64,000 bases of DNA from Sporosarcina sp. FSL W8-0480 (GTDB taxonomy: Bacteria; Bacillota; Bacilli; Bacillales_A; Planococcaceae): the NCBI RefSeq assembly GCF_037963765.1, contig NZ_CP150166.1, positions 3,045,501-3,109,500 of the forward strand. Reading direction: 5' to 3'. The notes beneath the pieces were generated by a model. It searched no databases. It was not told the DNA's origin and saw nothing but the letters and a program-made list of their open reading frames with translations. Each line of letters begins with the position of its first letter. Positions within the stretch are counted from its first letter, which is position 1. The position numbers were made by a program, and so were the translations under genes. Shown in pieces: positions 1,178 to 45,298 of this stretch.

Positions 1178-1187
1178 TCTCCCCCTT

Positions 1188-4100
1188 TTAATCATTTGCC
1201 CCTATTCCTTCCATTAACTGATTTAATAAATCAATTTCATCATCTAATAACTCAACACTGCTTACTTCTTCTATCAAATTCACTCTTTCTTTAGGCATTT
1301 GTTCGGAATTGGCAAATTTATAAAGCTCTTCTATGGCACTTAAAAAGTGTTTTTCAAAACTCTCCATATCTGCCTTACTTATGAATTGATGATCGTAATA
1401 ATTTGTGAATACGACCTTGTCCTTAACATATGCTCCATTTATTGTCAGAGGGTGGAATAATTGATTCTCGTCAGCAATATCGAATTGATTGAACCTGTCC
1501 GAAAATGCTATGCCTTTTAATTCGTGATTTTCAAGCGTGGTTTCTCCTAAGAAGTTAAAGATTATATCTGCATCGACCGTTAATGACTCGTCATGATGTA
1601 GATATCTCAGTATTCCATAGGAAATTCCTTGGTTTGGAACCTTTAAAAAGCTCCTTCTGACGTCCACTATTGCATCATTAATAGATAAATTAGGCTTTAA
1701 AATCATTGGATATATAGTTGTAAACCAGCCTACTGTTCTATTAATATTAATGTTTTCATTAAGTTCTTCTCTTCCGTGAGATTCTAACTCCAGTATATAA
1801 CTTGACGTATTCCTCCACTTTTTCAAGGCTATATTTAATGCGGTTATAAAGAATTCATCAGTTTCAATCCCAAAAATCCTATGATACTGCATGATCATTT
1901 GGGTGCACTTTTCTTTAGACATCTCAACACTAAATACGCCTAATCTCTTTTTACCAATGTACTCTTCTTCAGTTTTGGCTGTACCAAATAATCTGTCTGT
2001 GAATCTCCCTTCATACACTATCTCTTTCCAATGTTTTTCATCTTGTTGACTTAGATGGCTTTGTCCAAATTCCATTAAGCTTTCCACCCAATCCAAGTAC
2101 GAGGCTGTCTTTTTAGGCAATTCAACTTGCTTATTTGCGGCCAACTGATTATAAACGGTAAAGATGTCCACCACTATTATTCTCCAGGAAACACCGTCCA
2201 CCGCTAGATGATGTGCACAGACCATCAAATAATCCTTCGTTTTAGCATGAAATAATACTGCATGAAGCAATGGTCCATTTTGTATATCCATTGTGCTTTG
2301 CTCGTATTTCATCACTCTCTCAATTTCTTCGGTTGAGTCATCTTCAATAAATACTTCACTGAAGGCGCACAACCCCTCTTTCTCACCAATTGCTGTAATC
2401 CTTTGACGGGGATCATATACAACTCGTAACATGTCATGATGTTTCACGATTTTCTGTATTGCAGCCTTTAAAATATCTCCATTTAAAGGTGATTCCACTT
2501 CAAGAACTATGGATTGATTGAAGTGATTTGGATTTTTCAAGTCCAATTGAAGGAATCTACTTTGGATAGGTGATAAAGGAATTTCCCCGGACAATGAATC
2601 CTGACTATATTCCTCTATTTCTTTTACAACAACGTTTGCATTGCAAATGGATCCCACCGTTTGATAGTTCATAATATCTTTTATGGAAAGTCTGTATCCA
2701 AGTTCTCTTACAATAGAAGATACTTGAATTGCTTTAATTGAATCTCCACCTAACTCAAAGAAGCTATCATTTAGTCCAACAGGTTCTCTATTTAATACTT
2801 CTTCAAATGTCGTGGCTACCATTATTTCAATATCAGATGTAGGGGCAATGAATTCTTCTTGCCTTTCGAATCCGATATCCGGCAAAGCGTTTTTATCCGC
2901 TTTCCCATTTACAGTCAAAGGGATCTCGTCTATCGCCATAATATAGGAAGGTATCATGTATTCAGGTAATTCTTTTCTTAAACCTTCTCTTATTGCAGCT
3001 ATATCCGTTGATTCTTTCTCCTCCATTACCACGTATGCATAAAGGGCTTTATCCCCTTCGCCTACTTCCTTTGCGATGACTACCGTTTCCTTTATTCCCG
3101 CTTGTTTGTTGAAAACTTCCTCGATCTCCTGTAATTCAACTCGGTAGCCCCTTATTTTCACTTGCTGATCGATTCTGCCTAAGTACTCTATATTTCCGTC
3201 CGGCAGCCATCTTACCAAGTCTCCGCTTCTATACATTTTCCCTTTGCCGAATTTGTTGTCCACGAACTTTTCCTTATTGAGATCGTCCCGATTTAAATAA
3301 CCTCTACTAACACCTGATCCTGTAATGCATAATTCTCCAGGAACACCAATGCCACAAAGCTTGTCCCCGTTCAGTACATAAACTTGTGTACCGCTAATAG
3401 GCTTTCCGATTGGGATGGTATCGAAATCGTTCGGTATCTCATAGGTCGTTGTAAACGTTGTATTCTCTGTCGGACCATATCCATTGATGATTTTTATATT
3501 AGGATACAATGATTTAAATTTCCTTACATGACTAACAGATAGTTCTTCTCCACCTACGAACAAATTCTCCAAGTGCTCAAACATATCGGCTTTTATATCT
3601 AACATTTGATTGAACAGGCTTGATGTCATCCAAAGCGTATTTATTTTATTTTCTTTTAAAGATCTTGATAGTTTGTTTACATCTGTCAACGTATCTTGAG
3701 TTTCTAAATACAATGTTCCGCCGTTTAATAAACAACCGAAAAACTCAAATGTTGATGCATCAAAAGCAATTGATCCTGTCTGAAGAATTCTTGTTTCTTC
3801 ATTGAATGTGATGAAGTTGGGTTCTTTCACCAAACGAATGATACTTTTATGCTCAATAAGACTACCTTTTGGCTTTCCACTTGTTCCAGAAGTGTACATG
3901 ATGTAGGCTAGGTGATTGCCTTCCAAATTCAGATTTGGATTGGTGCTATTTCGATAATTATTATGATCTTTCAAGTTAATCTTTGTTAGTTGTTTTTCAA
4001 ATTCATAATCAAATTCGCCTAACAAGGCAGTTTTTGCCCCTACATCTTCGACTATGAAATCTATACGTTCTTTCGGATACGTATGGTCAATCGGAACATA

Positions 4101-7100
4101 GCTTGCCCCCGCCTTCAAAACGCCTAATATTCCGACGATTAACTGCAGAGATCGTTCTGAAAGAATAACAACCGGCTCTTCCTGCGCAACACCTTTTTCC
4201 AATAGTTCATGAGCCAATTCATTAGCCCTATTATTTAATTCAGCATAGGTCATTTCCTTGTCTTCAAATACAATGGCAGTTTTCGTCGGGAATTTATCCG
4301 CCATTTCTTCAAAGATTTGCTTCACACTGACCTCATCATAATTTCTTTCACTACGATTGAATTCACTAGTGATCACATTAAATTCATCGTGGATTAGTGA
4401 GTCCAGTTCTTCAATTTTCTGCTCCGTGTCAGCTGTTATACCCGAAAGTAGTTTGATGTACCGATTCATCATCAATTCAATACTCTCGCGTTTAAATAAA
4501 TCCGTATTATAAATACAATTCAGCTTGTACGTTCCATCTTTCAAGGACATTTCTATATCGATATCAAATTTCGATAGAGGGTCAGCAGTGAAAACGTCTT
4601 CGATGCTCATAGTATTTAACTCAAATTTGAATTCAGCTGCATTTTGCAGTGTAAAAGACACATCGAATAATGGATTCCTACTTGGATCCCTTTTATCCAC
4701 TACTTCATCCACTAATTCCTCAAAAGGATATTCTTGGTTTTCGTATGCCCCCATGCAATGTTCCTTTACCTCATCAAGAAAATCTTTAATAGTTTTTTCC
4801 GCATTTGGATAGCCACGCATCGCTAACGTATTCACGAACATCCCTAACGCCTTTTCGACATCCTTATGTGTCCTTCCAAACATCGGACTTCCGATTACGA
4901 TATCTTCCTGATGACTGTATTTATGAAGGGTGATCATAAGTCCACCAAGGAGAATCATATAATCGGTCAAGTGATTCTCGTTTGCAAATCTTCTTATTTT
5001 TGCAGTTACGTCTTCTTGGAGATCAATCGTAATTCGATCACCATTAAAGGTTTTGATCATCGGCCTTTTGGCATCGTAAGGTAAATGTAAAGCTTCAGGT
5101 TTGGTTTTATAGATGTTATGCCAATAATCCTTTTGGGCTTGCAAATCCCTTGTATTAAACCATTCACTGTAATTCTTATATTGAATGACCTGTTTCTCTA
5201 ACTCTCCGCCATTACACAAAGCTATAAATTCTTCCATAAATAGATTAATACTTACAGCATCGGAAACGATATGGTGGGTATCAAACAGTAAATAGCCATG
5301 GCTCTCCGATAATTTCACTAAGCCTAATCTGACTAATCGGTTTTTATTCAACTCAAAAGGCCTGACAAACTCTTGCATAAGCTGTTTTTTGGATAGTCCT
5401 CCATCCAAAATTCTTATATCAGCGTCCACCGTTTGAGAAATCCTTTGAATATACTCTCCATCCTCTATATGGAAACTCGTTCTCAAAATTTCGTGATGCT
5501 CAATGAGTTTTTGAAATACCGCTGAAAAGAGCTCCGTATCAAAGTTCCCTTTAACTTCGATTCCAAAAGGCATATTATAAGCTAAGGAATCTGGATTAAC
5601 CTCTTGCAATACATACATTCTCTTTGCAGATGAAATCATTGGGTAACTCATTTTCATTTCAGCAAGTGGTATAGGATAGAAATTCAAATTCTCAACGGAA
5701 TTCATAAAGAAAGCAAGGTCCTCAACAACCGGATGCTTAAACACATCCGATATTTTCACATCCTTACCTATTTCTTGTTTGATTAAATTCACAAGTTCCA
5801 TTGCAAGAATACTGTGTCCGCCTAATTCAAAGAAATTATCTGTTATGCCGATTCGATCTCTATTTAAAAGCTTCATATAAATACTGCAAAGTTTCTTTTC
5901 CAAAGATGTCTTTGGTGCGATGAATTCCCTTTCTTCGCTATTCGCCAGCAATAATAGTGCTTTATGATCCACTTTGCCATTTCTTGTCTTAGGAATATCT
6001 TCAACGTTATGCCAAAAACTTGGGACCATATATTCTGGAACCTGTTGTCTAATAGTATTTTTAACCCGATTCAAATCAGCCTCTATACTATCTGTTTTAA
6101 ACGCAATGAAAGCATGGATTTTCTTATCATTCTCATATTCTTGAACTACGACGGCAACATCTTTAATCGTATGATCATGTCTAATACAGGATTCGATTTC
6201 GCCTAATTCGACCCTATATCCTCTAATTTTCACTTGATCATCAATACGACCGATGTATTCAACGTTTCCATCCGGAAGCCATTGCGCCAAATCTCCAGTT
6301 CTATAAAGTTTCCCTTCGCCGAAAGGATTGTCTATAAACTTTTCTTCTGTTAGCTCAACTCTATTTAGGTAACCCCTTCCCACGCCTCCCCCTGCGATGC
6401 AAAGTTCGCCCGGCATACGGATTCCACAAAGGTTCGTACCCTGCAGAATATATATTTGGGTATTAAAAGTAGGTTTTCCAATAGGCACTGATTTATAATT
6501 TGCTCTTTCATCTGACCTGATAAAGAAATCGGTCGCACAGACTGTGGACTCCGTTGGGCCATAAGCATTTACATAATCTATTCCTTGTTTTACATGGTTC
6601 AGTACATGTGGATTGGATTCAGAACCTGCAGTTATAATGAGCCGCACTGTATCCAATTCTGTTAACAAGAAATATTGCGGAGGCAAGGTCACCACCGTAA
6701 CTCCCATTTCCCTAACATAATTGCTAAATAGTTGCGGGTCTTCTATAATTTCGTCATCCGTTAAGACAAGCGTTCCACCATGAAATAATGCCATTATAAT
6801 TTCCCAAACTGCAGCATCAAATGATAGGTTTGCAAATTGCAAGATAGAATCTTTATCATCTATCTCATAATGGTTACGATGGTGTTTAGAAAGATTGACA
6901 ACATTATGATGTTCAATCATTACTCCCTTAGGCTGTCCTGTAGTGCCTGATGTATATATGATATAAGCGAGGGACTCTGGTTTAATATCAACAGTATCTA
7001 TCTCTTCCGTATAGACCGTGTCATCATTTAAATTTATTTGTTTTCTACTTGTATATCCAAGCTCTTCGGTACAGAGAACTAGTTTAGGATTGCTATCCTC

Positions 7101-8723
7101 TAACATATATTCAATTCGAGTCTTTGGGTATTTTGAGTCGATTGGTATATAGGCAGCCCCCGATTTTAGGACTCCTAATATACCGGCAATAATTTCAATT
7201 CCTTTATTTCCAACAATGGCGACCAAGTCATTGGATTTTATTCCATTCTTTCTTAATGTAAATGCTATCTGATTAGCCATCTTATTTAACTCGGGATAAG
7301 TTAGTCGCTGATCCCGATACGCAATGGCAACTTTATCGGGATAGCTAAAAACCTGTTTTTCAAATACCGAAACAATGGTTTCATCTTTAGATATGTTGTC
7401 CGGAGTTTTATTAAACTCAAGTAAAATCTTGTTCTGTTCCATTGGTGGTAAAATGTTCATATCAGAAATGGATATTGACTTGTTAGCGGCCTCTATTAAC
7501 TGCTTAACAATATAGACTAACCTGTCATGCATTCTTTCAATATCCTCTTCGTCAAACAATGAAATTCTGTAATCATAATCTATGCTGAGCTCATTTTCCT
7601 TTGACCGATCACTTACATGAACGGTTAAAGCATTGTACTGATGACTACTATTTAACCACTCAATATTGTCTAAAACGGATGTGAGTTCAGAATCATAATT
7701 CGCATTCTGATATGAATAGCCAATCTCTAATAGATTTAAATCTTTCTTCAAATGCCTGTTCATATACTCATTGATGTCATTATAGGTATACGATGAGTGT
7801 CTAAGCATACTTGTTTGTTTCTGTTGAATGTCCAACAAAAATTCTTTGGCATTCATATCTTTATCGATAGTAGCTAATAGTGGTAATAAATGAACAAACT
7901 CTCCAAATATCTTCCTATCCCTTTTCTTCCTACCTAATACAGCCACTCCAAGAGAGATGGAATCAGTTTGTTTTTCATAGGAGTTAAGTAAAATTAGGGA
8001 ACTAAGAAATAAAACGGGTAATGAAACACCACAGTTTTCTGCGCCTGTAACGATGGATTTTGTTTCTTCTTCGTCTACGTTAAATGACATTCTTCTACTT
8101 TTCAGGTCTTCAATTGAAGATGCTTTAGGGTATTGATTGACACTATCGAATTTTTCTAAAAGCCGAGTCCAATACTCTTTACTTTTTTGCTTTCTTTTCG
8201 AGTCCTTTTCTTCATGCTCCTTTTTAATGTATTCTTCAAAAGAGGCTTCAGGATCCTCCTCAACCTCAATACGCAGCATATATTGACGTAGTTTTTTAGA
8301 AAAAATCTCGACTAATGACCAAGCATCAGCTATAGAATGATGCATAAAAAGCGCAAAAGACATTTTACCATTTGGTTTATGAAGTATATAAATCTCGTAC
8401 AGTTTTCCACCTTTATTGAAATAACACTTACTCATATGGATCGCTTTAAACTGTTCGTATACATTCCAAGTCGTAATTTCGACTAATGGAATGTCTTCAT
8501 AGTGAAAGCTTTCAAATGTTTGGTATAAATCGGTATCCTTTTCGATGTATCTTATTTGAAAAGCGTCCAACTCTTTGAGCACATGATTTAGTCCTTCATT
8601 TATTTCTTCATATGAATAGTTCGACTTAAAATCTGCGACAATTCCTAAGGTATTGATGCTCGTATTTTCAAAAATACTTTCAATATCTATAATTTGTTTT
8701 TGACTTTCCGACAATCCAATCAT
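1188..8723 (-). CDS. NRPS, 2 modules: C(starter)-A-T-C-A-T-E
   Basis: A 2511-aa nonribosomal peptide synthetase. The N-terminal condensation domain (about 1-430) has HHSIADA at 128-134 and a segment TVHVSDR...IDYDYR that resembles the lipoinitiation (C-starter) domain of surfactin synthetase SrfAA, so it probably loads a fatty acyl group. A domain 1 (about 440-930) gives the pocket code D-A-W-Q-I-A-A-V-C, nearest to Phe-type codes but with Gln at the fourth position. T1 has its phosphopantetheine Ser at 971 (GGHS). Then a second C domain with HHIVSDA, A domain 2 (pocket D-A-F-W-F-G-G-T-F, Val-type), T2 with Ser1995 (GGDS) and a terminal epimerisation domain (HHLAVDG, ESHGRE, RTVGWFTTIYP). It should make acyl-X1-D-Val and hand it to a module starting with a D-accepting C domain. 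It is last of the three NRPS genes but probably first in biosynthesis. It starts 12 bp after the 1484-aa NRPS. Confidence 0.93.
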   Translation of the reverse strand: MIGLSESQKQIIDIESIFENTSINTLGIVADFKSNYSYEEINEGLNHVLKELDAFQIRYIEKDTDLYQTFESFHYEDIPLVEITTWNVYEQFKAIHMSKCYFNKGGKLYEIYILHKPNGKMSFALFMHHSIADAWSLVEIFSKKLRQYMLRIEVEEDPEASFEEYIKKEHEEKDSKRKQKSKEYWTRLLEKFDSVNQYPKASSIEDLKSRRMSFNVDEEETKSIVTGAENCGVSLPVLFLSSLILLNSYEKQTDSISLGVAVLGRKKRDRKIFGEFVHLLPLLATIDKDMNAKEFLLDIQQKQTSMLRHSSYTYNDINEYMNRHLKKDLNLLEIGYSYQNANYDSELTSVLDNIEWLNSSHQYNALTVHVSDRSKENELSIDYDYRISLFDEEDIERMHDRLVYIVKQLIEAANKSISISDMNILPPMEQNKILLEFNKTPDNISKDETIVSVFEKQVFSYPDKVAIAYRDQRLTYPELNKMANQIAFTLRKNGIKSNDLVAIVGNKGIEIIAGILGVLKSGAAYIPIDSKYPKTRIEYMLEDSNPKLVLCTEELGYTSRKQINLNDDTVYTEEIDTVDIKPESLAYIIYTSGTTGQPKGVMIEHHNVVNLSKHHRNHYEIDDKDSILQFANLSFDAAVWEIIMALFHGGTLVLTDDEIIEDPQLFSNYVREMGVTVVTLPPQYFLLTELDTVRLIITAGSESNPHVLNHVKQGIDYVNAYGPTESTVCATDFFIRSDERANYKSVPIGKPTFNTQIYILQGTNLCGIRMPGELCIAGGGVGRGYLNRVELTEEKFIDNPFGEGKLYRTGDLAQWLPDGNVEYIGRIDDQVKIRGYRVELGEIESCIRHDHTIKDVAVVVQEYENDKKIHAFIAFKTDSIEADLNRVKNTIRQQVPEYMVPSFWHNVEDIPKTRNGKVDHKALLLLANSEEREFIAPKTSLEKKLCSIYMKLLNRDRIGITDNFFELGGHSILAMELVNLIKQEIGKDVKISDVFKHPVVEDLAFFMNSVENLNFYPIPLAEMKMSYPMISSAKRMYVLQEVNPDSLAYNMPFGIEVKGNFDTELFSAVFQKLIEHHEILRTSFHIEDGEYIQRISQTVDADIRILDGGLSKKQLMQEFVRPFELNKNRLVRLGLVKLSESHGYLLFDTHHIVSDAVSINLFMEEFIALCNGGELEKQVIQYKNYSEWFNTRDLQAQKDYWHNIYKTKPEALHLPYDAKRPMIKTFNGDRITIDLQEDVTAKIRRFANENHLTDYMILLGGLMITLHKYSHQEDIVIGSPMFGRTHKDVEKALGMFVNTLAMRGYPNAEKTIKDFLDEVKEHCMGAYENQEYPFEELVDEVVDKRDPSRNPLFDVSFTLQNAAEFKFELNTMSIEDVFTADPLSKFDIDIEMSLKDGTYKLNCIYNTDLFKRESIELMMNRYIKLLSGITADTEQKIEELDSLIHDEFNVITSEFNRSERNYDEVSVKQIFEEMADKFPTKTAIVFEDKEMTYAELNNRANELAHELLEKGVAQEEPVVILSERSLQLIVGILGVLKAGASYVPIDHTYPKERIDFIVEDVGAKTALLGEFDYEFEKQLTKINLKDHNNYRNSTNPNLNLEGNHLAYIMYTSGTSGKPKGSLIEHKSIIRLVKEPNFITFNEETRILQTGSIAFDASTFEFFGCLLNGGTLYLETQDTLTDVNKLSRSLKENKINTLWMTSSLFNQMLDIKADMFEHLENLFVGGEELSVSHVRKFKSLYPNIKIINGYGPTENTTFTTTYEIPNDFDTIPIGKPISGTQVYVLNGDKLCGIGVPGELCITGSGVSRGYLNRDDLNKEKFVDNKFGKGKMYRSGDLVRWLPDGNIEYLGRIDQQVKIRGYRVELQEIEEVFNKQAGIKETVVIAKEVGEGDKALYAYVVMEEKESTDIAAIREGLRKELPEYMIPSYIMAIDEIPLTVNGKADKNALPDIGFERQEEFIAPTSDIEIMVATTFEEVLNREPVGLNDSFFELGGDSIKAIQVSSIVRELGYRLSIKDIMNYQTVGSICNANVVVKEIEEYSQDSLSGEIPLSPIQSRFLQLDLKNPNHFNQSIVLEVESPLNGDILKAAIQKIVKHHDMLRVVYDPRQRITAIGEKEGLCAFSEVFIEDDSTEEIERVMKYEQSTMDIQNGPLLHAVLFHAKTKDYLMVCAHHLAVDGVSWRIIVVDIFTVYNQLAANKQVELPKKTASYLDWVESLMEFGQSHLSQQDEKHWKEIVYEGRFTDRLFGTAKTEEEYIGKKRLGVFSVEMSKEKCTQMIMQYHRIFGIETDEFFITALNIALKKWRNTSSYILELESHGREELNENININRTVGWFTTIYPMILKPNLSINDAIVDVRRSFLKVPNQGISYGILRYLHHDESLTVDADIIFNFLGETTLENHELKGIAFSDRFNQFDIADENQLFHPLTINGAYVKDKVVFTNYYDHQFISKADMESFEKHFLSAIEELYKFANSEQMPKERVNLIEEVSSVELLDDEIDLLNQLMEGIGAND

Positions 8724-8735
8724 TTTTACACCTCT

Positions 8736-11700
8736 CTATACCTCTACCATCCTGTATCCATGAAGTATTATTTTGTCCATAGCTTCCATTACTTGCTCTT
8801 CCCTATTTTCAAATCCTGTTGCAACGATCACCACACCATCATCTGTAAACTGGCATCTCACATTTATCGGCAACTTACCACTCGACGTATCTATTATCTT
8901 CCTTGCATTCATATCTAAAGTACTTTCTGCCGTGATTCCTGAATCATCACCATAGCTTGTCACTGCATTGACGCTAGGTATTTTGCTTCCATTTTCTATT
9001 AGCCAGTTTTCCTGTTCGCGATTTAAATCTCTTATTCCTAAACAAAGTTCCGGTGAGTTGGCAAGTAGTTCACTTATCTTCTCAAACCTGTTTCTTTCAG
9101 CTAAATCAATGGTGAATAATTTCGCTTCTTGGAAAAGACCAAGCGTCCTACTATTCGAAGCGTTTCTACCATGATGTAAAATAATCACAGGTATTTTATC
9201 GACTGCCTTCATCGTTTCTTCTTGAAGTATGATTGCTTCAAGCAATGAAAGTGTTGCAAGCAATTGATTAGTCATTACTGTATGATCTACATTGCTTTCA
9301 TCGAACTTCTTTTTAAAGACAGTCATTTTGCTTTTATTCTTATAGAGCAAGTCCATATTTTGAGCTGCATTCACGAATTCATTGAATTTCAATTCACTTG
9401 ATCCTTTTACTGCAGTTTCATTCTTCACATGTTGTGAATAGAAATGATCCTCTATTTTCCGGTGAATTAATTCCGGTTCTTTTAATAATTGATTTATCCT
9501 ACGCTCAAAAATTGAGGAAGAAGTCATATCCCATAAAGCATGGTGGATAAAAATATAAACGACATATTTGTTATGGGTAGCCTTGATGATGCAAATCTTA
9601 TTCAGCAAAGGTCCCTCAAACAAGTTCTTCGTGTCTAACCCGAACTTCTCGACAAGCGAATAGACGACTTGAGTGTCTTTTTGATTACTTCCACTAATGT
9701 CTACTACTGGAATCCTGTGATTCGTTGAAATTTCACTTTCAATGAATAAGTTCTTTTCCTGATCATAGCGGGTCCTTAAAACAGACTGTTCTGCTATAAC
9801 CCTTAAAATTGCCCTTTCAAGTTCACTCACTGTATATTCGCCTTCAAGGATAAAACGTCCGCTTGAGCCCCCACCAATGGTATCTTCAAGAAAGATTTGT
9901 TGGGATAAAGAAGGTTCATACTCCCCGACACTATTTCCTCTAACGATTGAATCACCATATGAATCCAATTCCTCAAGGAAATCTTTATAATGGATTTTGG
10001 CATCCGCGATTTTCTTGTTTATATCCAATTCAGATGAATAATCAACCTTCTCATGTCCATCTTCTTGTCCTTCATCCATCAAGGCTTTCGCCAATTCAAG
10101 TACAGTCCCGTTTTTCATAAGTTTTTTTATCGATAGAGCATAATCCACATTCCTACATAAAGTAGTAAACCTGATGGCCTTTATGGAATCTCCGCCTAAT
10201 TCAAAGAAATTGTCTTTAATGCCAACCTGATCAATTCCTAAGACTTCTTCAAACAGTTTACAAAGAGTTTCCTCAACCGAATTTCTTGGAGCAATGTATT
10301 CCACATGCCTTTCCAATTCGATTGCTGGCAATGCTTTTTTATCAATTTTCCCGTTAACAGTTAAAGGAATCTCGGCTATTTCCATTACATAGGCCGGTAT
10401 CATGTACTCAGGTAATTCTTTCCGTACACCTGCTTTTACCGTAACTATATCCGTCGCGTTTTCTTCGTCCATCACAACATAAGCGCATAAGGCTTGATTT
10501 CCTTCGTCTATTTCCTTTGCGATGACAACAGTTTCCTTTATGCCTGCTTGCTTGTTGAAAACTTCCTCTATCTCCTGCAGTTCAACGCGATAGCCCCGGA
10601 TTTTCACTTGGTTATCGATTCTACCTAAGTACTCGATGTTTCCGTCCGGCAGCCATCTTACCAAATCTCCACTCCTATACATTTTGCCTTCGCCAAAAGG
10701 ATTATCGACAAACTTCTCCTTCGTCAGTTCCTCACTATTTAAATAGCCTCTGCTGACGCCGGATCCTGTAATACATAATTCTCCCGGAATACCGATGCCG
10801 CAGATTTGTTCGTCTTGGCAAATATATGCAGTCCGTCCCACTATCGGCTTCCCTGCTTGGATAGTGCCTGTTTGATCCTTCGGTACATGATAGAATGCAG
10901 CGCATACCGTTTGCTCGGTTGAACCGAACGTATTACCCACATTGGCATGTTCCAATAAATTATCGATATAGCTGTATTTGAGTGTATCTCCGCCATTTAA
11001 ATAGAGATTTACAGTTTTAGGAATTCGTCCTTGATTGAACTCCTTCAATAACAGAGTGGAACAACTGATTAACGTCACTTCATGCTCGTCCATATAATCA
11101 CATGCTTTGTTTATATCCGTAATTCGCTCCTCATTATAAAGAACTACTTTTCCACCTCTAATATGGACTGGATACACTTCTTCAACGATGGTGTCGAAGT
11201 TATAGGCCGTATGCTGGAGCGCTACTGTTTCTTCAGAGATGTTAAATTCATCTGCAAAAGATCGTACATAAGAGGTGGCGCCTGCATGCTCGACCATGAC
11301 GCTTTTTGGTTTTCCACTCGTTCCTGATGTCGACGTTAAATAGATCAAGTCCTCTTTTTCATTGATCTTTACCGGGTTCTCTTCACAACCGCTATACGCA
11401 TCTTCGGAAAACAGGTGTAAACAAACATAGTCTCCCTCCGGGGCGTCTACCCCTTTCCCTAAAAGAATCACTTTCGGGGAATAGTCGTTTAAGATGAAGT
11501 TTATCCGGTCTTTCGGGAAGCTTATATCAATTGGTCCATAGGCTCCACCGGATTTCATGACGCCATAAATTCCTATCATCATTTCAAGATTTCTTTCAGA
11601 AAGTATTGCCACTATGTCATTTCTGCCGACGCCTAATTCCCTCAATTTATGAGATAGTGAATTGGCTTTTCTATTTAGTTCATCGTAAGTGAGTTCTTCA

Positions 11701-13190: not shown

Positions 13191-13211
13191 TTATCTCCTT
13201 TCATATAACGT

Positions 13212-16200: not shown

Positions 16201-19200
16201 ACAAGTTTATTCGCAAGATGATTGATCTTATTATTCAATTCGCTATAGCTCAATTCGTTCTTACCATCTACAAGAGCAATTTTTTCCGGATTCACCTCCA
16301 CAGCCTCTTCAAATAGTTCTTTTACTGTTTGCTGTGTATCGATGATTTTCTCGGTATTGTTGAAATCCTTGAGCATATTCAATGTTGCCGCCTCATCGAA
16401 AAGAGCAACTTCCCCAATCGTTTTTTCAGGATTGGCAATGATTTCATTGAGTATATGGAAATAATGTTCAACAAGAATTTTCATGCTTGATTTGTTGAAT
16501 ATTGCTTCGCTATAGATTAAATCAAGATGGTAGTGTCCATCGCCATATTCCATTTGGAAATCCAAGTCGAATTTCGCAACTGGTTTTTGACTGACCGTCC
16601 CGAGTGTGAAATCTTTCGTTCCGAAAATTACCTCTTCATTGTTTTGAAGCGTGAACATAATATCAAAGATCGGATTTCTGCTGAAGTCACGATTGGTTAC
16701 AGTTCTTTCAACCAAGTCTTCAAATGGATATTCCTGATGTTCGTATGAGCTCAAGGAATGTTCTTTGATTTCATCTAATAAGACTTTGATCGATTTATCT
16801 TTTTCCGGATAGCCTCTCATCGCAAGTGTATTTACAAACATCCCGACGATATTGGCAGTATCCGGATGAGTTCTTCCAGATATCGGACTTCCTATCACTA
16901 CATCCTCTTGTCGGCTGTATTTGCTGATGCAAACCATCAAGGCTCCTAACATGACCATATAATCCGTATAGCCTTCTCTTCGCGCAAACATTTTCAATTC
17001 TTCCGTGACTTCTTTGGCTAACTGTTTTTTGACACGATCCCCTTTGAAGCTCTGCAGCTGTGGCCGTTTGGCATCAAGAGGGAAATCCAAGACAGGTGGC
17101 TTTTCCTTATGAGTGCTTAACCAGTAGTTCTGTTGTTCAGCGAGGTCCCTGTTTAACATCCATTCACTGTAATCTTTGTAGTGGACGTTTAGGGAAGGAA
17201 GTTCATTCCCTTCGTAAAGCTGACAGAACTCCTGGATCAAAATGTTCATGCTCATACCATCAGAGATAATATGATGCTTATCAAAGAGGAGATACCCTTG
17301 GTCATCTTCTGTCTTGATAATCTTCACTCTTAGCAAAGGTGCTTTACTGAGATCGAAAGGACGTACGAACTCCTCTAAATAGACTTCCGAAGGTAAATTT
17401 GCGTCTCTTTCCTCTATATCAACTTCGATGGCAGCCTCAGCAGCAATCTTCTGCACAGCTACTTCCTCTTCAAAGTGGAAACTCGTTCTTAGCGATTCAT
17501 GCCTTTGGACCAACCGATCCAATACGTTCTGAACCTTTTCCACATCTACTTTCCCTGTATACGATAAGCAAATTGGCATATTGTAGCCGATTTCGGATTC
17601 ATTCATTTGATTGAGCAAGAAAAGACGTTTCTGTGCTGATGACATCGGATAAGTTTCCTTATTCCCTGCTTTTGGAATCGGTTCGTAATTCCCTGCTTCC
17701 ATCTCTTCGATATGCTTGGAAAGTGATTCCGGAGTAGGGTATTCAAATAGATATTTAATACCTATACGTTTATTCAGTTTTTCCTCTAACTGATTGACAA
17801 CGTTCATGGCTCGTAAACTATGACCGCCAAGTTCGAAGAAATTATCCGTTACACCCACTTGTGGAATGCCTAAGACTTTTTCAAATATCTTACAAACCGC
17901 TTCTTCAACAGGATTTTTAGGCGCAATATATTCTTCGTGCCTTACCCATTCAATGTCCGGCAACGCTTTTTTGTCCGTTTTCCCGTTTACCGTCAATGGG
18001 ATTTCTTCTATTGCCATAATGTAAGCCGGGATCATGTATTCAGGTAATTCATTTCGTACACCTGCTTTTACAGAGGCTATATCCGTCGCGTTTTCTTCTT
18101 CCATCACGACATAAGCGAAAAGGGCTTGATCTCCTTCGCCTATTTCTTTGGCGATGACGACTGTTTCCTTTATGCCTTGTTGTTTGTTGAAGACTTCCTC
18201 TATTTCCTGCAGTTCAACACGATAACCTCGAATCTTCACTTGCTGATCGATTCTACCCAAGTACTCGATATTTCCGTCCGGGAGCCATCTCACGAGATCT
18301 CCGCTTCGATACATTTTCCCTTCACCAAAAGGATTATCGACAAACTTCTCCTTTGTCAGTTCCTCACTGTTTAAATAGCCTCTACTGACGCCGGAACCTG
18401 TTATGCATAATTCTCCCGGAACCCCAATTCCGCATAGTTGCTCTCCTTGGAGAATATATGCATTCCGCCCTACTATCGGCTTGCCGGCAGGGATGGTGCT
18501 TGTTTGATTTTTAGGCACTTGATAAAAAGCAGCACATACCGTTTCTTCCGTAGAACCGAATGTATTTCCGACATTGGAATGTTTCAATAAATTATCGATA
18601 TAGCTGTATTTGAGTGTATCTCCGCCATTTAAATAGAGATTTACAGTTTTAGGAATTCGGCCTTGATTGAACTCCTTCAATAACAGAGTCGAACAGCTGA
18701 TTAATGTCACTTCATGCCCGTCCATATAATCACATGCTTTATTTATATCCGTGATTCGTTCTTCATTATAAAGAACGACTTTTCCACCTCTAATATGGGC
18801 TGGATACACTTCTTCAACGATGGTGTCAAAGTTATAGGCCGTATGCTGCAGCGCTACTGTTTCCTCGGATATGTTAAATTCATCTGCAAAAGATCGGACA
18901 TAAGAGGTGACGCCTGCATGCTCGACCATGACACTTTTTGGTTTTCCACTCGTTCCGGAAGTCGACGTTAAATAGATCAAATCCTCTTTCTCATTGATCT
19001 TTACCGGGTTCTCTTCACAACCGCTATACGCATCTTCGGAAAACAGGTGTAAACAAACATAGTCTCCCTCCGGGGCGTCTACCCCTTTCCCCAAGAGAAT
19101 CACTTTCGGGGAATAGTCGTTTAAGATGAAGTTAATCCGGTCTTTCGGGAAGCTTGTATCAATTGGTCCATAGGCTCCACCGGATTTCATGACGCCATAA

Positions 19201-22200
19201 ATTCCTACCATCATCTCTAAATTTCTTTCAGAAAGTATAGCGACGATGTCATTTCTGCCGACGCCTAATTCCCTTAATTTATGCGATAGTGAATTGGCTT
19301 TTCTATTCAGTTCATCGTAAGTAAGTTCTTCATCTTCAAAGACGAGTGCGATGTTGTCAGGTGTTTTAACAACTTGTCTTTCAAAATGCTCAATTATCGT
19401 TTCACTTGAATACATCTCATCCAAGGATTCACTTTGGTTGAATTGCTTTACAACCATTTCCTGTTCTTTTTCATCGATTAAATTCAAGTGACCGATCACC
19501 TTGCCCGGATTTTTTATTATTTCCTTGATCATAAAACTATAATGCTCAAGGAAATATTCAATACTTTCCGGGGTAAATAGCTCTTTTCCATACGTGCAAT
19601 TTACGATAAACTCGCCATTTTGTTCATATACATCTATGTCTAAATCACATTTAACCGATAGTTCTCCTTCAGTCCAGTTTGAGATCGAAATACCATCAAT
19701 ACTGAACTTCGCTTCTTCGTTGTTTTGAAGAGTAAGCATTATATCAAAGAGCGGATTCCTATTTAGTTCCCGGTTTTCCACCACATTTTCTACAAGCTTT
19801 TCGAATGGATATTCTTGATTTTCATAAGCCGTTAGACAATGTTCTTTGACTTCGTCTAAGAAGTCGTTCGTCAGTTTGTCTTTTTCCGGATATCCTCTCA
19901 TAGCCAATGTGTTGACGAACATGCCTACTATATTTTCAGTGTCCGCATGGGTTCTGCCAGATATCGGACTTCCTATAATAATGTCTTCTTGTCTGCTATA
20001 TTTACTCACGCTTATCATTAAAGCTGAGAGAAAAACCATATAATCTGTATAACCTTTTCTCCTTGAAAAGGACTTTATTTCCTTTGTCATCTCTTTTCCT
20101 ATGGACTTTTTTAAACTTCCTCCTTCGAAAGTTGGAGTCTGTGGCCTGTTGAAGTCCAGCGGAAAGTCTGATGCCAATGGTGCTTTATCGTGAATAGCCA
20201 ACCAATAGTCTTCCTGTTTTTTCAGATCCTTGTTAAGCATCCATTCACTGTAATCTTTATAGTGGATAGTAAGGGCTTGTAGTTCCTTTCCTTCGTAAAA
20301 TTGGCTAAAATCATTCACCATAATATTCATACTCATGCCATCGGAAATAATATGGTGCATATCAAATAGAAGATATCCTTGATTTTGGTTGACTTTAATA
20401 ATCTTTGCCCTTAACAAGGGTGCTTCAGTTAGATCAAATGGACGTACAAAGTCTTTTAAATACACTTCCGGCGAAGCGTCATTGACTCCTTCGGACATTT
20501 CAAGCGGGATTTCACTGTTCAAGCTAATCCGTTGGATAAATTCTCCCTCTTCGTAATGGAAGCTCGTTCGGAATGACTCATGTCTATCCACTAACTTAAT
20601 AAGGGCCTGCTCGACTTTATCTTCGTCAAGTGATCCTTCATAGGTCAGGCAAAGCGGCATATTATAACTTACATCCGCTTTATCCAATTGGTGGATTAAA
20701 AATAGTCTTTGTTGCACGGAGGACATAGGATACGATTCTTTATAAGCCGCTTTCGGAATAGGCTCATAAGCATTCCCTTCAAGTTCCATCACATACTTGG
20801 ACAATAATTCAGGAGTAGGATTTTCAAATATATATTTGAAACCTATACGTTTCTCCATACGTTCCTCAATTAAATTAACGACTCCCATAGCTCGTAAACT
20901 ATGGCCGCCTAATTCAAAGAAATTGTCCGTTACGCCAACTTGTTCAATACTTAAAACCTCTTCGAATATGCTGCAGAGCATTTCTTCAACAGGATTTCTT
21001 GGAGCAACATACTCATCCTGTCTTTCGTATTCGATTTCTTGTAAAGCATTTTTATCGACTTTCCCATTAATCGTTAATGGGATTTCTTCGATTTCCGCGA
21101 CAAAGGAAGGAATCATAAAGCTTGGCAATTCTTTTCGTAAATCGCGTTTGACTTTGGTGAGATCCAGTCCTATTCCATTCTTCGGTACGACGAATGCCGT
21201 AAGAAGCTTGTCTTCTCCAGTTTCTTTCACGATTACGACTGCGTCTTTTATCCCCTCTTGCCGCCCTAAAACTTCTTCGATTTCTCCAGGCTCAATTCGA
21301 TACCCCCGGATGCTTGTTTGTTCATCAATTCTGCCAAGGTACTCCAATTGACCGTTCGGCAGCCATCTTGCTAAATCGCCCGTTCGATAGAGAACTCCTT
21401 CTCCAAACGGATTTTGCACGAACTTTTCTTTCGTCAGCTCTTCTTGATTGAAATAGCCCGCGCTTACCCCTGCTCCTGCTATACAAAGTTCTCCCGGAAC
21501 ATTTATGGAACAGAGCTTGTCCTGATCCATAATATAGATTTTGGTATTGTCGATTGCCTTACCGATTGATACAGCCGTTCCTTGTACCGATCCTTTGTTT
21601 GATCCCGTATAGACATAATCGCAACAACCAACTGTCGCTTCTGTCGGCCCGTATTCATTGTGGATTTTTATATGGCTTCCGAACTTGTCCAAGATTTCTT
21701 GTGTAAGTTGAACGCTCAGTTCTTCTCCACCCACAATTAACGTGTTTAGTTTCTTGAGCTGTTTTGGTTGCTCTTGGATGGCCATCTTTAAATGTGATGG
21801 CGTCATTTTCGCAAAGCTGTATTTGTCCTCATGGAATATCTCTTTTATTGTTTTTTCTACGTCATGATCCTCAATGACTAATTTTCCACCTGTACATAAT
21901 GGAAGGAATAAGGTTGTCACCGTCAGATCGAATCCGAAACTTGTAAACAATGGCGCGCAAACTTCCTCCGTGACATAGGATTTTTTCCCATACTGCAAGT
22001 AGTTGTACAGGTTACTATGCTTCACCATGACGCCTTTCGGTTTGCCGGTCGTTCCGGAAGTGTACATGATATAGACAAGATCATTTTCATGATGAACCCT
22101 TGGTGGATTAGCTACTTGATGGCCTGACGCAGTAAATTCATCATCCAAGTTAAGGATTGTTGAATCGACTGTTCCAAGTTCTCCAAGTGCCGACAGTTCA

Positions 22201-25200
22201 GAGTCGCCTACAAGGATGACCTTTGGCGCGGAATCCTCAATGACATATTTCTTCCGCTCCAATGGGTAATCAGGATCGATTGGAATATAACTTCCTCCAG
22301 CCTTTATGACGGCATAGATTCCTACTATCATTGCGGCGCTTCTGTTCGTCAAGATAGCGACCCGTTCCCCGGGTTGAATGCCTAATTCCCGGAGGTTGTT
22401 TGTCAGGTAATTGATCTTATTATTTAATTCTTCGTAGCTTAATTCGTTCAGCCCATCCACAAGTGCAATTTTTTCCGGGTACTTCTCCACGACTTCCTCA
22501 AACAGTTCTTTTACCGTTTGTTTTGTATCGATCAGATTATCGGTATTGTTAAATTCCATAAGGATGTTCAATGTGTCAGTCTCATTGGAAAGCTTGAGTT
22601 CTCCAATCATTTTGTTAGGACTAACGATGATTTCATTTAGTATATGAAAATAATGTTCTACAAGGATTTCCATGCTTTCTTTATTGAATAATGCTTCGCT
22701 ATAGATCAAATCGAGTTGATAATGTCCGTCGCTATATTTCACATGGAAATCCAAATCAAATTTCACGACTGTTTGATGACCTATAGTACCCAAAGTGAAA
22801 TCCTTTGTTTCGAAAAGCACCTCTTCATTGTTTTGAAGCGTAAACATAATATCGAAAATCGGATTTCTACTGAGATCCCGATTCGTTACGATTCTTTCAA
22901 CCAGATCTTCAAATGGGTATTCCTGATTTTCATAGGAATTCAAAGAGTGTTCTTTAACTTCATCTAAAAAGGCTTTGACGGATTTACCTTTTTCAGGATA
23001 GCCCCTCATTGCAAGAGTGTTTACGAACATTCCGACGATACTAGTAGCATCCGGATGGGTTCTTCCGGAAATCGAGCTTCCAATAATAATATCCTCTTGC
23101 CGGCTGTATTTTCCGACGCATACCATTAAAGCCCCTAACATGACCATATAGTCCGTATAGCCTTCCCTTCGAGCAAAAGCCTTCAATTCTTCCGTAGCAT
23201 TTTTTGAAAGCAATTTTTTAACACTTTTACCTTTAAAGCTCTGAAGTTGAGGCCTTTTGGCATCGAGAGGGAAATCCAAAACAGTTGGCTTTTCCGCATA
23301 AATGTCTAACCAATAGTTCTGTTGACCGTTGAAATCCCTATTCGACATCCATTCACTGTAATCTTTGTATTGGACAGTTAAGGAAGTAAGTTCTTTCCCT
23401 TCGTAAAGCTGACAAAACTCCTTGATCAAAATGTTCATGCTCATGCCGTCCGTAATAATATGATGCATGTCAAATAGAAGATAACCTTCGTCATCTTTGG
23501 TCTTGATGATCTTTATCCTTAACAATGGTGCTTTACTTAGATCAAAAGGACGTACGAATTCCTTCAAATAGACTTCCGATGATGAGCTTGCATCTCGTTC
23601 TTCCCTTTCAACCTTGATGCTTGCCGCGGCAGCAATCCTCTGGACAGCTTCCCCATCTTCAAAGTGAAAACTTGTTCGTAGCGATTCATGTCGTTGTACT
23701 AATTCATTCAATACATTCTGAACCTTTTCTTCATCCATTTTTCCTGTATACGATAAGCATGCCGGCATATTGTAACTGAGTTCGGCTTCATTCATTTGGT
23801 TCAGTAAGAATAGCCGCTTCTGCGCCGATGACATCAAGTATGAATCCTTATGCTCAGCTATCGGGATAGGTTCGTAATTTCCGACTTCCATCTCTTCAAT
23901 ACGCTTGGAGAGCAGTTCCGGAGTAGGACAATCGAATATATGGTTCATTTCAATACGTTTCTTCAACTTTTCCTCTAACAAGAGTACGACATTCATAGCT
24001 CTTAAACTATGTCCGCCTAATTCGAAGAAATTATCCGTTACACTTACTTGTTGAATCCCGAAGACTTCTTCATAGATGTTGCAAATTGTTTCTTCAACAG
24101 GATTTCTTGGGGCAATGTATTCAACAGGTCTTTCCCATTCGATATCCGGCAAAGCCTTTGTATCCATTTTTCCGTTTACGGTCAAGGGAATCTCATTGAT
24201 TGCCATAATATAAGAGGGGATCATGTACTCGGGTAATTCTTTTCGTAAACTTTCTTTTATAACGGCTAAATTCACATCTTCTCCCTCTTCCATCACCACA
24301 TAAGCGAAAAGGGCCTTATCTCCGTCCAATACTTCTTTAGCGATGACAACTGTTTCCTTTACTCCGTCTTGTTTGTTGAAAACTTCCTCTATCTCTTGCA
24401 GCTCAACCCGATAGCCCCTAATTTTCACCTGCTGGTCAATCCTGCCTAAGTATTCGATGTTTCCGTCTGGCAGCCATCTGACCAAATCCCCGCTTCTATA
24501 CATTTTCCCCTCACCAAAGGGGTTGTCGACAAACTTTTCATTTGTAAGTTCATCCCGATTTAAATAGCCCCTACTGACACCGGTGCCTGTAATGCATAAT
24601 TCTCCCGGAATTCCGATACCGCAAAGCTTGTCACTATTCATGACATATACTTGTGTGCCGCTGATTGGCTTTCCGATTGGAATCGTATCGAAATCAGTTG
24701 GTATCTCATAAGTTGTCGTAAATGTCGTATTCTCTGTTGGACCATATCCATTGATGATTTTTACATCCGGATACATAGATTTAAACTTTCTAATATGATT
24801 AACAGATAGTTTTTCTCCACCTACTAACAGATGGTCCAGATTTTCAAACATATCAGCTTTAATATCTAACATTTGATTGAATAAGCTTGATGTCATCCAA
24901 AGGGTATTTATTTTGTTTTCTTTTAGGGATTTTGATAGTTTATTAACATCTGTTAACGTTTCATTCGGTTCTAAATACAAAGTGCCCCCGTTCAGTAAAC
25001 TACCGAAAAATTCAAATGTCGATGCATCAAAGGCAATAGATCCGGTTTGAAGAATCCTTGTATTTTCATTGAAAGCGACGTAGTTTGCATCTTTCACCAA
25101 TCGAATAATACTCTTATGCTCAATGAGACTTCCTTTCGGCTTTCCACTCGTTCCTGAGGTGTACATTATGTACGCAAGGTGAGTACCGTCTACTGTTATG

Positions 25201-27014
25201 TTTGGATTTGTATCAACGTTGTTATAACTTTTATTATCTTTTAAATTCACTCTGATTAAATCTTGTTTAAAATCATAATAAAAATCTCCAAGTAGGGCTA
25301 TTCTTGCACCTACATCTTCCACGATAAAATCTATGCGTTCTTTTGGATACGTGTGATCAATCGGAACATAGCTTGCTCCAGCCTTTAAAATCCCCATTAT
25401 TCCTACTAATAACTCTAAGGAACGTTCCCCGTAGATGATAACCGGTTCTTCTTTTTCAACTCCAAGCTCAATTAATGTATGAGCCATTGCATTCGCCCTT
25501 TTATTTAATTCGTCGTAACTCATCCCTTTATCCCCAAATCTAAGGGCAGTTTTATCCGGGAATTTAGTTGCCATTTCTTCAAACAGCGCACTCACACTGA
25601 ATTCATCATAATTTCCTGTTGAATGATTGAATTCCCTAATTATCATTGCTTCCTCTTCATCAGTAATGCTGTTAATCGACTCCACTTTACTGTCAGGATG
25701 CAATGCGAAATGCAGGACCGTTTTCTTTAGTTGCAGGAGGATTCGTCTAATATCGTTTTCCGAAAATAAGCTTGGATCATAGAGCAGATCTAATTGCAAA
25801 GTGTCTAAATGGCTAACACGTAATGTAAGTGGGTAATTCGTTTGTTCCCTTGCTTTACTAATTTCAAATGACAAACCTTCTTTCTCCGACAAAATGCCTT
25901 CATTTGTTACAAAGTTTTCAAAGGCATATACGGAGTGAATAAGGCCCTTGTTCATGGATCTCGATTGAATTTCCGCAAGGGAACTATGTTGGTAGTCAAG
26001 GCTATTCGCACCCTGATTTTGCATGTTATGCAACAGTTCCATGCAGCTTATTTCATCCGTAGCCTCGACCCTTGTAGGAATGGTATTAATGAACAGGCCT
26101 ACAGTTTCTTCTATATTAGGTAGTGAAATGTCTCTGCCTGAAACGACTTTTCCAAACACCACATCATTGGAACCGCTATAGGATTGCAATACAACACCCC
26201 ATGCAGTCTCAATTAATGTACTGATAGTTACGTTGTAAGCAACCATCCTTTCCTTTACGATATTGAATTCCGTTTCGGTAAAAGGAATACTGAATTCTAA
26301 AACACTACTATCAGTAATTTCCTTATTACCAAAGGATTGAATCTTGGCATTTGTATCATATCCATGCAGCAGATTGTCCCAATAGGTGTAACCCTCCTCC
26401 TCATCTTTCATCTGCAACCACTTAATATAATCACCATAAGTGGTCTTGCTACGATTTGAATTTTTAATGGCCGACATAATATTTTCTTTTGATTCACCTT
26501 TTTGCAAGGCGAAATAATTATTCAAAAAGTCTTCAAAAAGAATCGGCAAACACCAGCCATCGATAATGATATGATGAAAACTCCAAACCAATATCCATTC
26601 ACCCTTGGACAATCTAATCGCAGCTACCCTGAAATTTGTAGATTTCTCAAAATCAAATCCTCGCTTTACATCCTGTTCAAGAAACTTCTCCACTTCGACT
26701 TCTTGTTCAACACCTGATAATTCTTGAAGGTCCAGTTTAGTAAACTCTATTTGTCTATCTTTCAGTACAATTTGCACTGGTTTTTTAAATCTATTCAGAG
26801 GAATCATTGTTCTAAGAACTTCATGTTTTTGTGCAAGAAGTTGTATGCTTTCATTCGCCAACTCTACAGAAAAGTCACCTTTGATTTTTAAACTTGTCTG
26901 CACAACATAGTTTCCAGACTTCTCATTCACGATTTGGTGAAACAACATCCCTTCTTGTAAAGGGCTCAGAGAGTAGACCTTCTCGATATTATTATTCAGA
27001 TTATGCGTACTCAT
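13212..27014 (-). CDS. NRPS, 4 modules: C-A-T-C-A-T-C-A-T-C-A-T-E
   Basis: A 4600-aa synthetase. C1 (HHIIIDG at 147-153, N terminus [12 protein letters not shown]) is of the TycB1 type that follows an epimerisation domain; C2-C4 carry HHIITDG or HHIISDG and look like L-L condensation domains. Pocket codes read from the sequence: A1 D-A-F-W-L-G-G-T-F (Val, strong), A2 D-L-T-K-I-G-E-V-G (Asn, strong), A3 D-T-E-S-L-G-T-V-C (unknown, possibly basic), A4 D-L-T-K-I-G-E-V-G (Asn). Phosphopantetheine serines are at 1003, 2039, 3066 (GGHS) and 4098 (GGDS). The last ~430 residues are an epimerisation domain ([24 protein letters not shown]). The C terminus TPSDF...EELEDIL matches the donor communication-mediating helix that docks to C domains such as that of the 1484-aa NRPS. 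It should add Val-Asn-X-D-Asn. Its start overlaps the stop of the ATPase gene by 14 bp, indicating translational coupling. Confidence 0.95.
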   Translation of the reverse strand: [4600 protein letters not shown]

Positions 27015-27711: not shown

Positions 27712-27760
27712 ATATGATTCCCCCATTAATTTATACGTTAGTGGTAACAGCATGATTGGC

Positions 27761-31355: not shown

Positions 31356-31394
31356 GGCTGTCACAGAAAGTCAGTAAAACTTTCTGTGACAGCC
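31356..31394. repeat. Perfect 15-bp hairpin, terminator-like, related to the one at 32112
   Basis: GGCTGTCACAGAAAG and its exact complement enclose a 9-base loop. On the minus strand it is followed by CTTTTTGC, so it could terminate leftward transcription. The left arm and loop match the left arm of the hairpin at 32112-32154 almost base for base, so the two look like members of one repeat family, flanking the gene at 31623. Confidence 0.7.
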
Positions 31395-32111: not shown

Positions 32112-32154
32112 GGCTGTCCAGAAAGTCAGTAAAAACTGACCTTATGTGACAGCC
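32112..32154 (+). terminator. Hairpin following the 31623 gene
   Basis: GGCTGTCCAGAAAGTCAGT pairs imperfectly with ACTGACCTTATGTGACAGCC around an AAAA loop, followed by ATTTTA. It is 49 bases after the stop at 32063 and may terminate that transcript. It is a diverged copy of the hairpin at 31356. Confidence 0.55.
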
Positions 32155-39869: not shown

Positions 39870-39945
39870 TTTAAATCCTCCTCTAATCTATTCAAATGAG
39901 TCAGTGGTCCTGTTCGACTGCATACTCACTATCACATGCAGGTAG

Positions 39946-40725: not shown

Positions 40726-40761
40726 TTTAGTGCACTTCCTTTCTACATCTCGAAACCAAAT

Positions 40762-42193: not shown

Positions 42194-42196
42194 TGC

Positions 42197-44031: not shown

Positions 44032-44043
44032 GGGTACTCCCCC

Positions 44044-45261: not shown

Positions 45262-45298
45262 CCCATTCCCTCCCAAATTATCAATAATAAAATTAACT

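Follow-up and report, generated by a model that had tools for sequence, protein, structure and literature searches.

A predicted lipoheptapeptide assembly line encoded out of order in Sporosarcina sp. FSL W8-0480, with a thioesterase-less terminal domain and a neighbouring kamA gene

The window analysed in the present study, a 64,000-nucleotide stretch of Sporosarcina sp. FSL W8-0480, contains three minus-strand genes for nonribosomal peptide synthetases (NRPSs) of 2511, 1484 and 4600 aa, which very probably form one lipopeptide assembly line encoded out of order, working as 2511→4600→1484; this judgement, made on sequence evidence, covers the assembly order and the residue classes and leaves the release step aside. 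The predicted product is acyl-Phe-D-Val-Val-Asn-B-D-Asn-B, where B is a basic residue and the acyl chain is presumed. Coordinates are those of the window (position 1 is contig position 3045501), except for genes to its left, which are numbered within the contig stretch 3027000-3046900 (L011). The genome is a single contig of 3.25 Mb (completeness 98.44); one plasmid match of 109 bases (84%) is a weak hint of Sporosarcina. The synthetases, made up of condensation (C), adenylation (A), carrier (T) and epimerisation (E) domains, were assigned from the list of open reading frames (ORFs), Pfam, hidden Markov models (HMMs) and pocket codes, and those of 2511 and 4600 aa also from a tree:

1188..8723, minus strand: NRPS of 2511 aa, predicted modules 1-2, C(starter)-A(Phe)-T-C(LCL)-A(Val)-T-E
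8736..13190, minus strand: NRPS of 1484 aa, predicted module 7, C(DCL)-A(basic)-T-terminal C-superfamily domain
13212..27014, minus strand: NRPS of 4600 aa, predicted modules 3-6, C(DCL)-A(Val)-T-C-A(Asn)-T-C-A(basic)-T-C-A(Asn)-T-E

All three ORFs lie where a preliminary description of this DNA had placed them, and each matches the Pfam condensation, AMP-binding and PP-binding families. HMMs built on the window's own domains gave the strings C-A-T-C-A-T-E for the 2511-aa protein, (C-A-T)x4-E for the 4600-aa protein and C-A-T followed by the terminal domain for the 1484-aa protein; the C-A-T modules carry HHxxxD and GGxS motifs, and by motifs and tree the E domains precede DCL acceptors. A search of the whole contig revealed no further NRPS to the left, a possibility raised in the preliminary description: all 10 matches to PF00668 in the genome sit inside these three genes. 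The genome holds 14 matches to PF00501, seven of which are the NRPS A domains and seven of which lie in frames of 483-585 aa. NRPS genes are sparse in the genus, with five of 25 genus genomes matching the 1484-aa protein at 1e-60, and the whole 1484-aa protein as query found no match in the genome contig collection.

The order of assembly follows from the types of the C domains and from the docking ends, to which the following features belong:

7407..8714, minus strand: starter-type C domain of module 1 (residues 4-439), by its clade and its N-terminal relatives
25623..26981, minus strand: DCL-type C domain of the 4600-aa protein, acceptor-like N-terminus SPLQEGMLFH (tree, motif)
11802..13166, minus strand: DCL-type C domain of the 1484-aa protein, acceptor-like N-terminus SPLQEGILF (tree, motif)
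1266..2579, minus strand: E domain of module 2 (HHLAVDGVSW, LESHGRE, FNFLG), by tree; TIGR01720 57.2 bits, below the cut-off of 74.2
13308..14567, minus strand: E domain of module 6, by tree; TIGR01720 103.3 bits, above the cut-off of 74.2
13215..13289, minus strand: C-terminal COM-type donor tail of the 4600-aa protein (TPSDF...EELEDI), by the TPSD tails of four E-terminated comparator frames

Trees were built from 91 C and E domains of fetched loci together with those of the window, labelled by context and, for E domains, also by motif. A quick tree of 100 rows and a careful tree of 83 rows, the latter without the 1484 terminal domain, both L020 rows, L041, L025, L021, one L060 row and ten starter rows, agree on the typing. 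In the careful tree, the N-terminal C domain of the 2511-aa protein falls inside, and not outside, a starter clade of 21 rows, all of them N-terminal (support 100/99). The N-terminal C domains of the 4600- and 1484-aa proteins fall in a 12-row clade (100/99) of the DCL type, which follows E domains; this clade takes in all five domains labelled as standing after a C-type domain, three of which belong to the bacillomycin D synthetases BamB and BamC, our named references, by annotation, for DCL, E and LCL. The C-terminal domains of the 2511- and 4600-aa proteins group with ten E domains (100/100), and the remaining four C domains are LCL, in a 22-row clade (100/98) whose other 18 rows comprise 15 domains after a T domain and three cut at a locus edge. 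The earlier claims that the 2511- and 4600-aa proteins end in E domains, and that only the 4600- and 1484-aa proteins begin with a D-accepting C domain, are thus borne out.

When the 2511 N-terminal domain was searched against 398 genomes of the window's class, taken to be Bacilli, with at most four candidates scored per genome, 52 genomes matched at 1e-20. Its relatives stand at the frame start in 28 of the 29 loci examined, the window's own apart; the exception (L072) has 152 codons before the domain, with a possible start 21 codons upstream. Sister to the 2511 starter domain is that of a frame of about 5598 aa in another genome (G032, L096/L097), which has five C-A-T modules with A codes all of the type DVWH(L/F)(S/T)L, presumably Ser-like. 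The starter clade also includes the domain that opens a frame of 6346 aa (L091) with the first A code DVGEISSID, the module-1 code (DVGEISSI) of the 6312-aa PmxE, which is described as having a starter C domain at its start (PMC3708778).

The docking ends agree with this typing. The C-terminus of the 4600-aa protein reads TPSDFDAVDMGVEELEDILNIF, and TPSD tails are also found on the four comparator frames ending in E domains. The 4600- and 1484-aa proteins start with SPLQEGMLF and SPLQEGILF, similar to the comparator starts (S/T)P-x-Q-x-GML(F/Y), and the 2511-aa protein has no such acceptor-like start. COM docking occurs at E/C junctions, and COM domains are described as promiscuous (PMC9113145). 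From C-domain types and docking together, 2511→4600→1484 is the only order that has a starter domain in first place and employs every enzyme a single time; the order that had been proposed, despite a gene order of 4600, 1484, 2511, is thus supported by the phylogeny, the N-terminal position of the relatives and the docking ends.

Residue classes were predicted from pocket codes obtained by alignment, which read DAWTIAAVC and DAFWFGGTF for modules 1 and 2 (2511 aa), DAFWLGGTF, DLTKIGEVG, DTESLGTVC and DLTKIGEVG for modules 3 to 6 (4600 aa) and DTESLGTVC for module 7 (1484 aa). The same procedure applied as a control gave DALSVGEVV, DLTKIGEVG, DVQFIAHVV and DAKDLGVVD for BamB and DVWHFSLID and DFWNIGMVH for BamC, which fit the bacillomycin D residues Tyr-Asn-Pro-Glu-Ser-Thr. 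The A domains are:

5961..7382, minus strand: A domain 1, code DAWTIAAVC, predicted to select Phe (PMC3708778 gives DAWTIAAI for D-Phe)
2889..4328, minus strand: A domain 2, code DAFWFGGTF, Val predicted (alignment)
10335..11771, minus strand: A domain 7, code DTESLGTVC, basic residue predicted (alignment); 94% identical to A domain 5

The code DAFWLGGTFK is given for Val (PMC9113097), and DLTKIGEVGK is treated among the Asn signatures, being compatible also with a Cya moiety (PMC12283262). DTESLGTVC is taken as basic-type because its Glu at position 3 is shared with most of the Arg signatures described (PMC12283262) and because this Glu and its Thr at position 7 are counterparts of residues in the poly-ornithine synthetase PosA, where the corresponding Glu, with Thr and Ser later in the code, binds the ornithine/lysine side-chain amine (PMC10522769). 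The sequence proposed earlier, X1(aromatic-like)-D-Val-Val-Asn-X-D-Asn-X, thus agrees with the codes and is refined to Phe at position 1 and basic-type residues at both X. A by-eye reading of the X pocket as DTESYNTVC was mis-registered; with the aligned code DTESLGTVC, its likeness to a poly-beta-lysine code at position 301 falls. A domains 5 and 7 are 94%, 4 and 6 87%, and 2 and 3 80% identical, and the assembly line therefore seems to have grown by duplication. The best other match to the DTESLGTVC-type A domain is 45% identical in the 261 genomes of the order, and none other was found at 1e-85 among 398 genomes of the phylum. A scan of the genome contigs for the pocket FDT-[hydrophobic]2-EE-[hydrophobic]-[Y/F]-P gave 32 loci, 22 with exactly DTES(I/L/V)GTVC, eight with a near or cut variant and two without such a domain; they (L098-L129) lie in Bacteroidota, Clostridia and others, Chitinophaga, Fulvivirga, Aquimarina and Clostridium puniceum among them, and the nearest domain, the third A domain of an uncultured Alkaliphilus (L109), has the code DTESLGTVC and is 58% identical.

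The 1484-aa protein ends in a domain of a different kind, which the preliminary description had passed over:

8739..9968, minus strand: terminal domain of the C superfamily, HHALWDMTSS, with no thioesterase in cis (Pfam, profile comparison, alignment)

Its roughly 410 residues give a weak match to PF00668, scoring 39.7 bits over positions 33-192 of the 456-position profile, and no Pfam match to a thioesterase domain was found in any of the three NRPSs, the only thioesterase seen being a free protein left of the window. Profile comparison relates the domain to all C subtypes; in local mode the alignment with E is the longest (380 columns), and the LCL and starter alignments, of 302 and 276 columns, have higher scores. 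The T domain in front of it carries GGDSIKAIR, as do the two that precede E domains. An E domain was nevertheless rejected, as HHALWDMTSS, ILHHGRN and VNAVTSY stand against HHxxxDGxSW, a Glu before HGR, and FNYLG, and TIGR01720 does not match, while both true E domains match it (57 and 103 bits). Against the 398 class genomes, with at most four candidates scored in each, the domain matches strongly only itself; the next-best match (E 2e-12, 27% identity over 150 residues) lies in a 468-aa frame running off its contig, and another relative (E 1e-8) is the last domain, after a T domain, of a 3229-aa synthetase. In the three-member alignment, H177, D181 and S184 (HxxxDxxS) are invariant and HH is kept in two of three. 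The quick tree joins the domain to L025 via long branches, and its structure model (mean pLDDT 44.6) is too poor for use.

Several points weigh against a single line ordered 2511→4600→1484. The 2511 N-terminal domain sits on a long branch (1.56) in the careful tree, the starter reference set was chosen by similarity to the query, and the DCL clade and other parts of the tree contain N-terminal domains too, so that N-terminal position alone is not diagnostic. Pocket codes predict substrates and prove none. The 2511 C-terminal tail is not of the TPSD type, so the hand-over to the 4600-aa protein rests on the E/DCL logic, and a direct passage 2511→1484, skipping 4600, is possible. The last enzyme has no thioesterase in cis and only a conjectural release role for its terminal domain, and both assembly line and product are predicted from the sequence. 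That the enzymes work as their genes lie, 4600→1484→2511, or make several short products separately, would be favoured by the gene order itself and by the promiscuity of COM domains (PMC9113145); however, the 4600- and 1484-aa proteins both open on DCL domains and the 2511 starter-type domain would stand mid-chain, which makes this alternative very improbable. For the end of the line, we suggest that the terminal domain has a release role. That it is instead a dead remnant, with the chain hydrolysed by the free thioesterase or spontaneously, would suit its great divergence among the 397 other class genomes and its want of the Glu of the E-domain HGR motif. However, HxxxDxxS is kept in all three aligned members, HH in two of them, and another synthetase ends in a relative placed after a T domain; a dead remnant thus appears unlikely.

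The NRPS genes are flanked on both sides by genes of the same strand, assigned by profile matches and, for the first two, the ORF list:

27001..27753, minus strand: ABC transporter ATPase, LolD/MacB-like, sharing 14 bases with the start of the 4600 gene
27761..30232, minus strand: FtsX-type ABC permease, 823 aa
30238..30891, minus strand: 4'-phosphopantetheinyl transferase, expected to prime the T domains
1..1195 (whole gene L011:17930-19696), minus strand: ABC exporter, 588 aa
L011:17191-17952, left of the window, minus strand: type II thioesterase, 253 aa (PF00975, E 1.4e-34; GYSFG)
L011:15776-17167, left of the window, minus strand: KamA/AblA lysine 2,3-aminomutase, 463 aa (TIGR03820, PDB 2A5H)
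L011:15488-15775, left of the window, minus strand: YokU-family gene, 95 aa

From strand and spacing, the NRPS genes through the ABC exporter, thioesterase, kamA and yokU form an apparent operon, in which kamA starts 23 bp after the thioesterase frame. KamA scores 647.1 bits with TIGR03820, against an equivalog cut-off of 525.4, and matches PDB 2A5H at E 7.8e-184. A 17-base sequence, GACTTTCTGTGACAGCC, flanks the NRPS genes with up to two mismatches (window 31356-31394 and 32138-32154; L011:15253-15269); its three matches in the window, two of them the arms of one hairpin, compare with 0.01 expected, and one lies in L011. The copies are possibly a repeated terminator or a small mobile element bounding an island.

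Whether KamA takes part in the product was considered from its distribution. PF12544 (kamA) matched in seven of the 261 genomes of the order and in two of the 61 of the genus, this genome and G006. The match in G006 is partial, its frame being 45% identical to KamA and near another NRPS; in that genome (L040/L041), the NRPS genes have genes of the PALP, Lyase_1 and ATP-grasp families upstream of them and, downstream, a diverged aminomutase frame in which the PF12544 match holds stop codons. In the five other kamA-bearing genomes, of the same family, kamA comes directly after a thioesterase-like frame, the two frames overlapping where kamA begins. In the one of these read further (G482; L135:15248-19938 and L136), an NRPS-polyketide synthase cluster has an A-T protein, a free C domain, a thioesterase, KamA and a methyltransferase; the thioesterase is a PF00975 protein, the A-T code is DVGEVGGIE, KamA is 73% identical, and the cluster is a second candidate for a beta-lysine product. 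The beta-lysine acetylase gene ablB had no match in this genome, its family having matched in control genomes; the lysine 5,6-aminomutase KamD was not found either, which shows little, as its family matched no control genome. Two named Bacillaceae records have ablB-ablA-yokU in a row, with no NRPS annotated in the stretch shown. The closest KamA in the plasmid collection is that of Cytobacillus spongiae (80.5% identical), compared with 73% for the NRPS-linked KamAs of the family. When 28 genomes with the pocket motif (from 29 of the 32 loci) were checked, 24 had no match to PF12544, nor had 17 of the 20 with exactly DTES(I/L/V)GTVC; DTESLGTVC is therefore not by itself a beta-lysine pocket. 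The uncultured Alkaliphilus (L109) was rejected as support for a beta-lysine NRPS, as, of its two kamA matches, one sits among genes that by their sizes resemble a lysine fermentation operon, and no NRPS domain was found in the 20 kb read. A lysine fermentation locus joining kamA to a KCE-like gene at 39036 found no support as far as the region was read: in the window (39036-46108) that gene is below the model cut-off and lies near branched-chain-type ABC transporter genes.

Beta-lysine is possible as a building block because kamA is rare in the order and ablB has no match here. That the neighbouring KamA supplies beta-lysine for one or both of the basic residues, the product being a beta-lysine lipopeptide, is further favoured by KamA passing the equivalog cut-off directly after the thioesterase on the same strand, by the recurrence of the thioesterase-kamA adjacency in five genomes of the family, in G482 within an NRPS-polyketide synthase cluster, and by a poly-beta-lysine code, DGESISVVNK, with the same E and S at positions 3 and 4 (PMC10522769). 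However, code position 6 (301) is Gly here and Ser in that code, most pocket-motif genomes have no PF12544 match, KamA is closer to that of Cytobacillus spongiae than to the family's NRPS-linked KamAs, and ablB-ablA-yokU is an ordinary Bacillaceae unit from which kamA-yokU could be a passenger; we thus hold a beta-lysine residue to be doubtful. If kamA-yokU came as a passenger when the NRPS arrived by horizontal transfer, it would have no part in the product, a reading that agrees with the identical ablA-yokU order in the two Bacillaceae records and with the pocket code in genomes without a kamA match; against this, kamA is intact and tightly spaced to the NRPS genes, ablB (and, for the little it shows, KamD) was not found in this genome, and the adjacency to a thioesterase recurs. 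A passenger is a serious possibility, though somewhat short of an even chance. A fuller version, a cationic acyl-Phe-D-Val-Val-Asn-betaLys-D-Asn-betaLys with KamA drawn to the NRPS operon's end from a Bacillaceae-type ablB-ablA-yokU unit that has dropped ablB, and release by a new subtype of terminal C-superfamily domain in place of a thioesterase, is improbable in its entirety.

Considering these results, we propose the following scenario for the biosynthesis of the lipoheptapeptide. The starter C domain of the 2511-aa protein would acylate Phe1, and its second module would add Val, epimerised to D-Val. The chain would pass to the DCL N-terminus of the 4600-aa protein, which would add Val, Asn, a basic residue and Asn, the last converted to D-Asn, and the COM donor of this protein would hand the chain to the DCL N-terminus of the 1484-aa protein for addition of the second basic residue. 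The terminal C-superfamily domain may then release the chain, by amide formation with an amine or by cyclisation, while the free type II thioesterase may edit mis-loaded carriers and the ABC transporters may export the product. L-Lys is the simplest assignment for the basic residues; KamA may swap one or both for beta-lysine or feed beta-lysine to the release step.

The preliminary description knew of no described product with this pattern, and a comparison by words and codes within the open-access literature, MIBiG lying outside it, yielded none: that literature gave no beta-lysine lipopeptide, lipoheptapeptide or Sporosarcina lipopeptide matching the prediction, and no mention of six codes including DTESLGTVC and DTESIGTVC, nor of DAESIGSVVK. 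If correct, the prediction provides a structure that can be tested for a cationic lipopeptide not yet described, in a genus with sparse NRPS genes, and adds one more polymyxin-like permuted assembly line; it also raises the questions of what a thioesterase-less bacterial terminal C-superfamily domain does and of whether an osmolyte-type aminomutase has been recruited to make a peptide beta-amino acid.

The closest known arrangement is that of polymyxin in Paenibacillus polymyxa, whose synthetase is described as 'not collinear' and assembles in the order pmxE-pmxA-pmxB (PMC3708778). Shared with it are three subunits (PmxE, PmxA and PmxB), an N-terminal starter C domain on the subunit encoded last, an identical circular permutation of gene and assembly order, two E domains and ABC transporter genes (PMC3708778). 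Polymyxin differs in having ten residues rich in 2,4-diaminobutyric acid (Dab), E domains in modules 3 and 6, and a terminal thioesterase, whereas the system here has seven residues, Lys-type pockets, no thioesterase, a terminal C-superfamily domain and kamA nearby. The genes for surfactin and fengycin in Bacillus are collinear, with thioesterase release and residues other than those here. Like the present system, they use a starter C domain to acylate residue 1 (PMC11546977) and COM docking at E/C junctions (PMC9113145), and surfactin has a free type II thioesterase (PMC8949500). The epsilon-poly-beta-lysine synthetase of Streptoalloteichus hindustanus, found via its adjacent aminomutase gene, resembles the present locus in that KamA-type neighbour and in E and S at code positions 3 and 4 (DGESISVVNK), but makes a homopolymer of the poly-lysine type and is no modular lipopeptide NRPS (PMC10522769). 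The terminal domain of the 1484-aa protein belongs to the C superfamily, as do fungal CT domains, which release by cyclisation and share HxxxDxxS, and streptothricin ORF18, which joins a beta-lysine peptide to an amine (PMC11546977). In a comparison of motif letters only, ORF18 has HQxxxDM and the domain here HHxxxDM; the M is not kept in the two aligned relatives, so that the shared letter is weak evidence. The permuted order is less surprising in that it is already known from polymyxin, and lipopeptide NRPSs with a starter C domain are a known kind, of which the present system is a variant by virtue of its predicted sequence, its terminal domain and its link to kamA.

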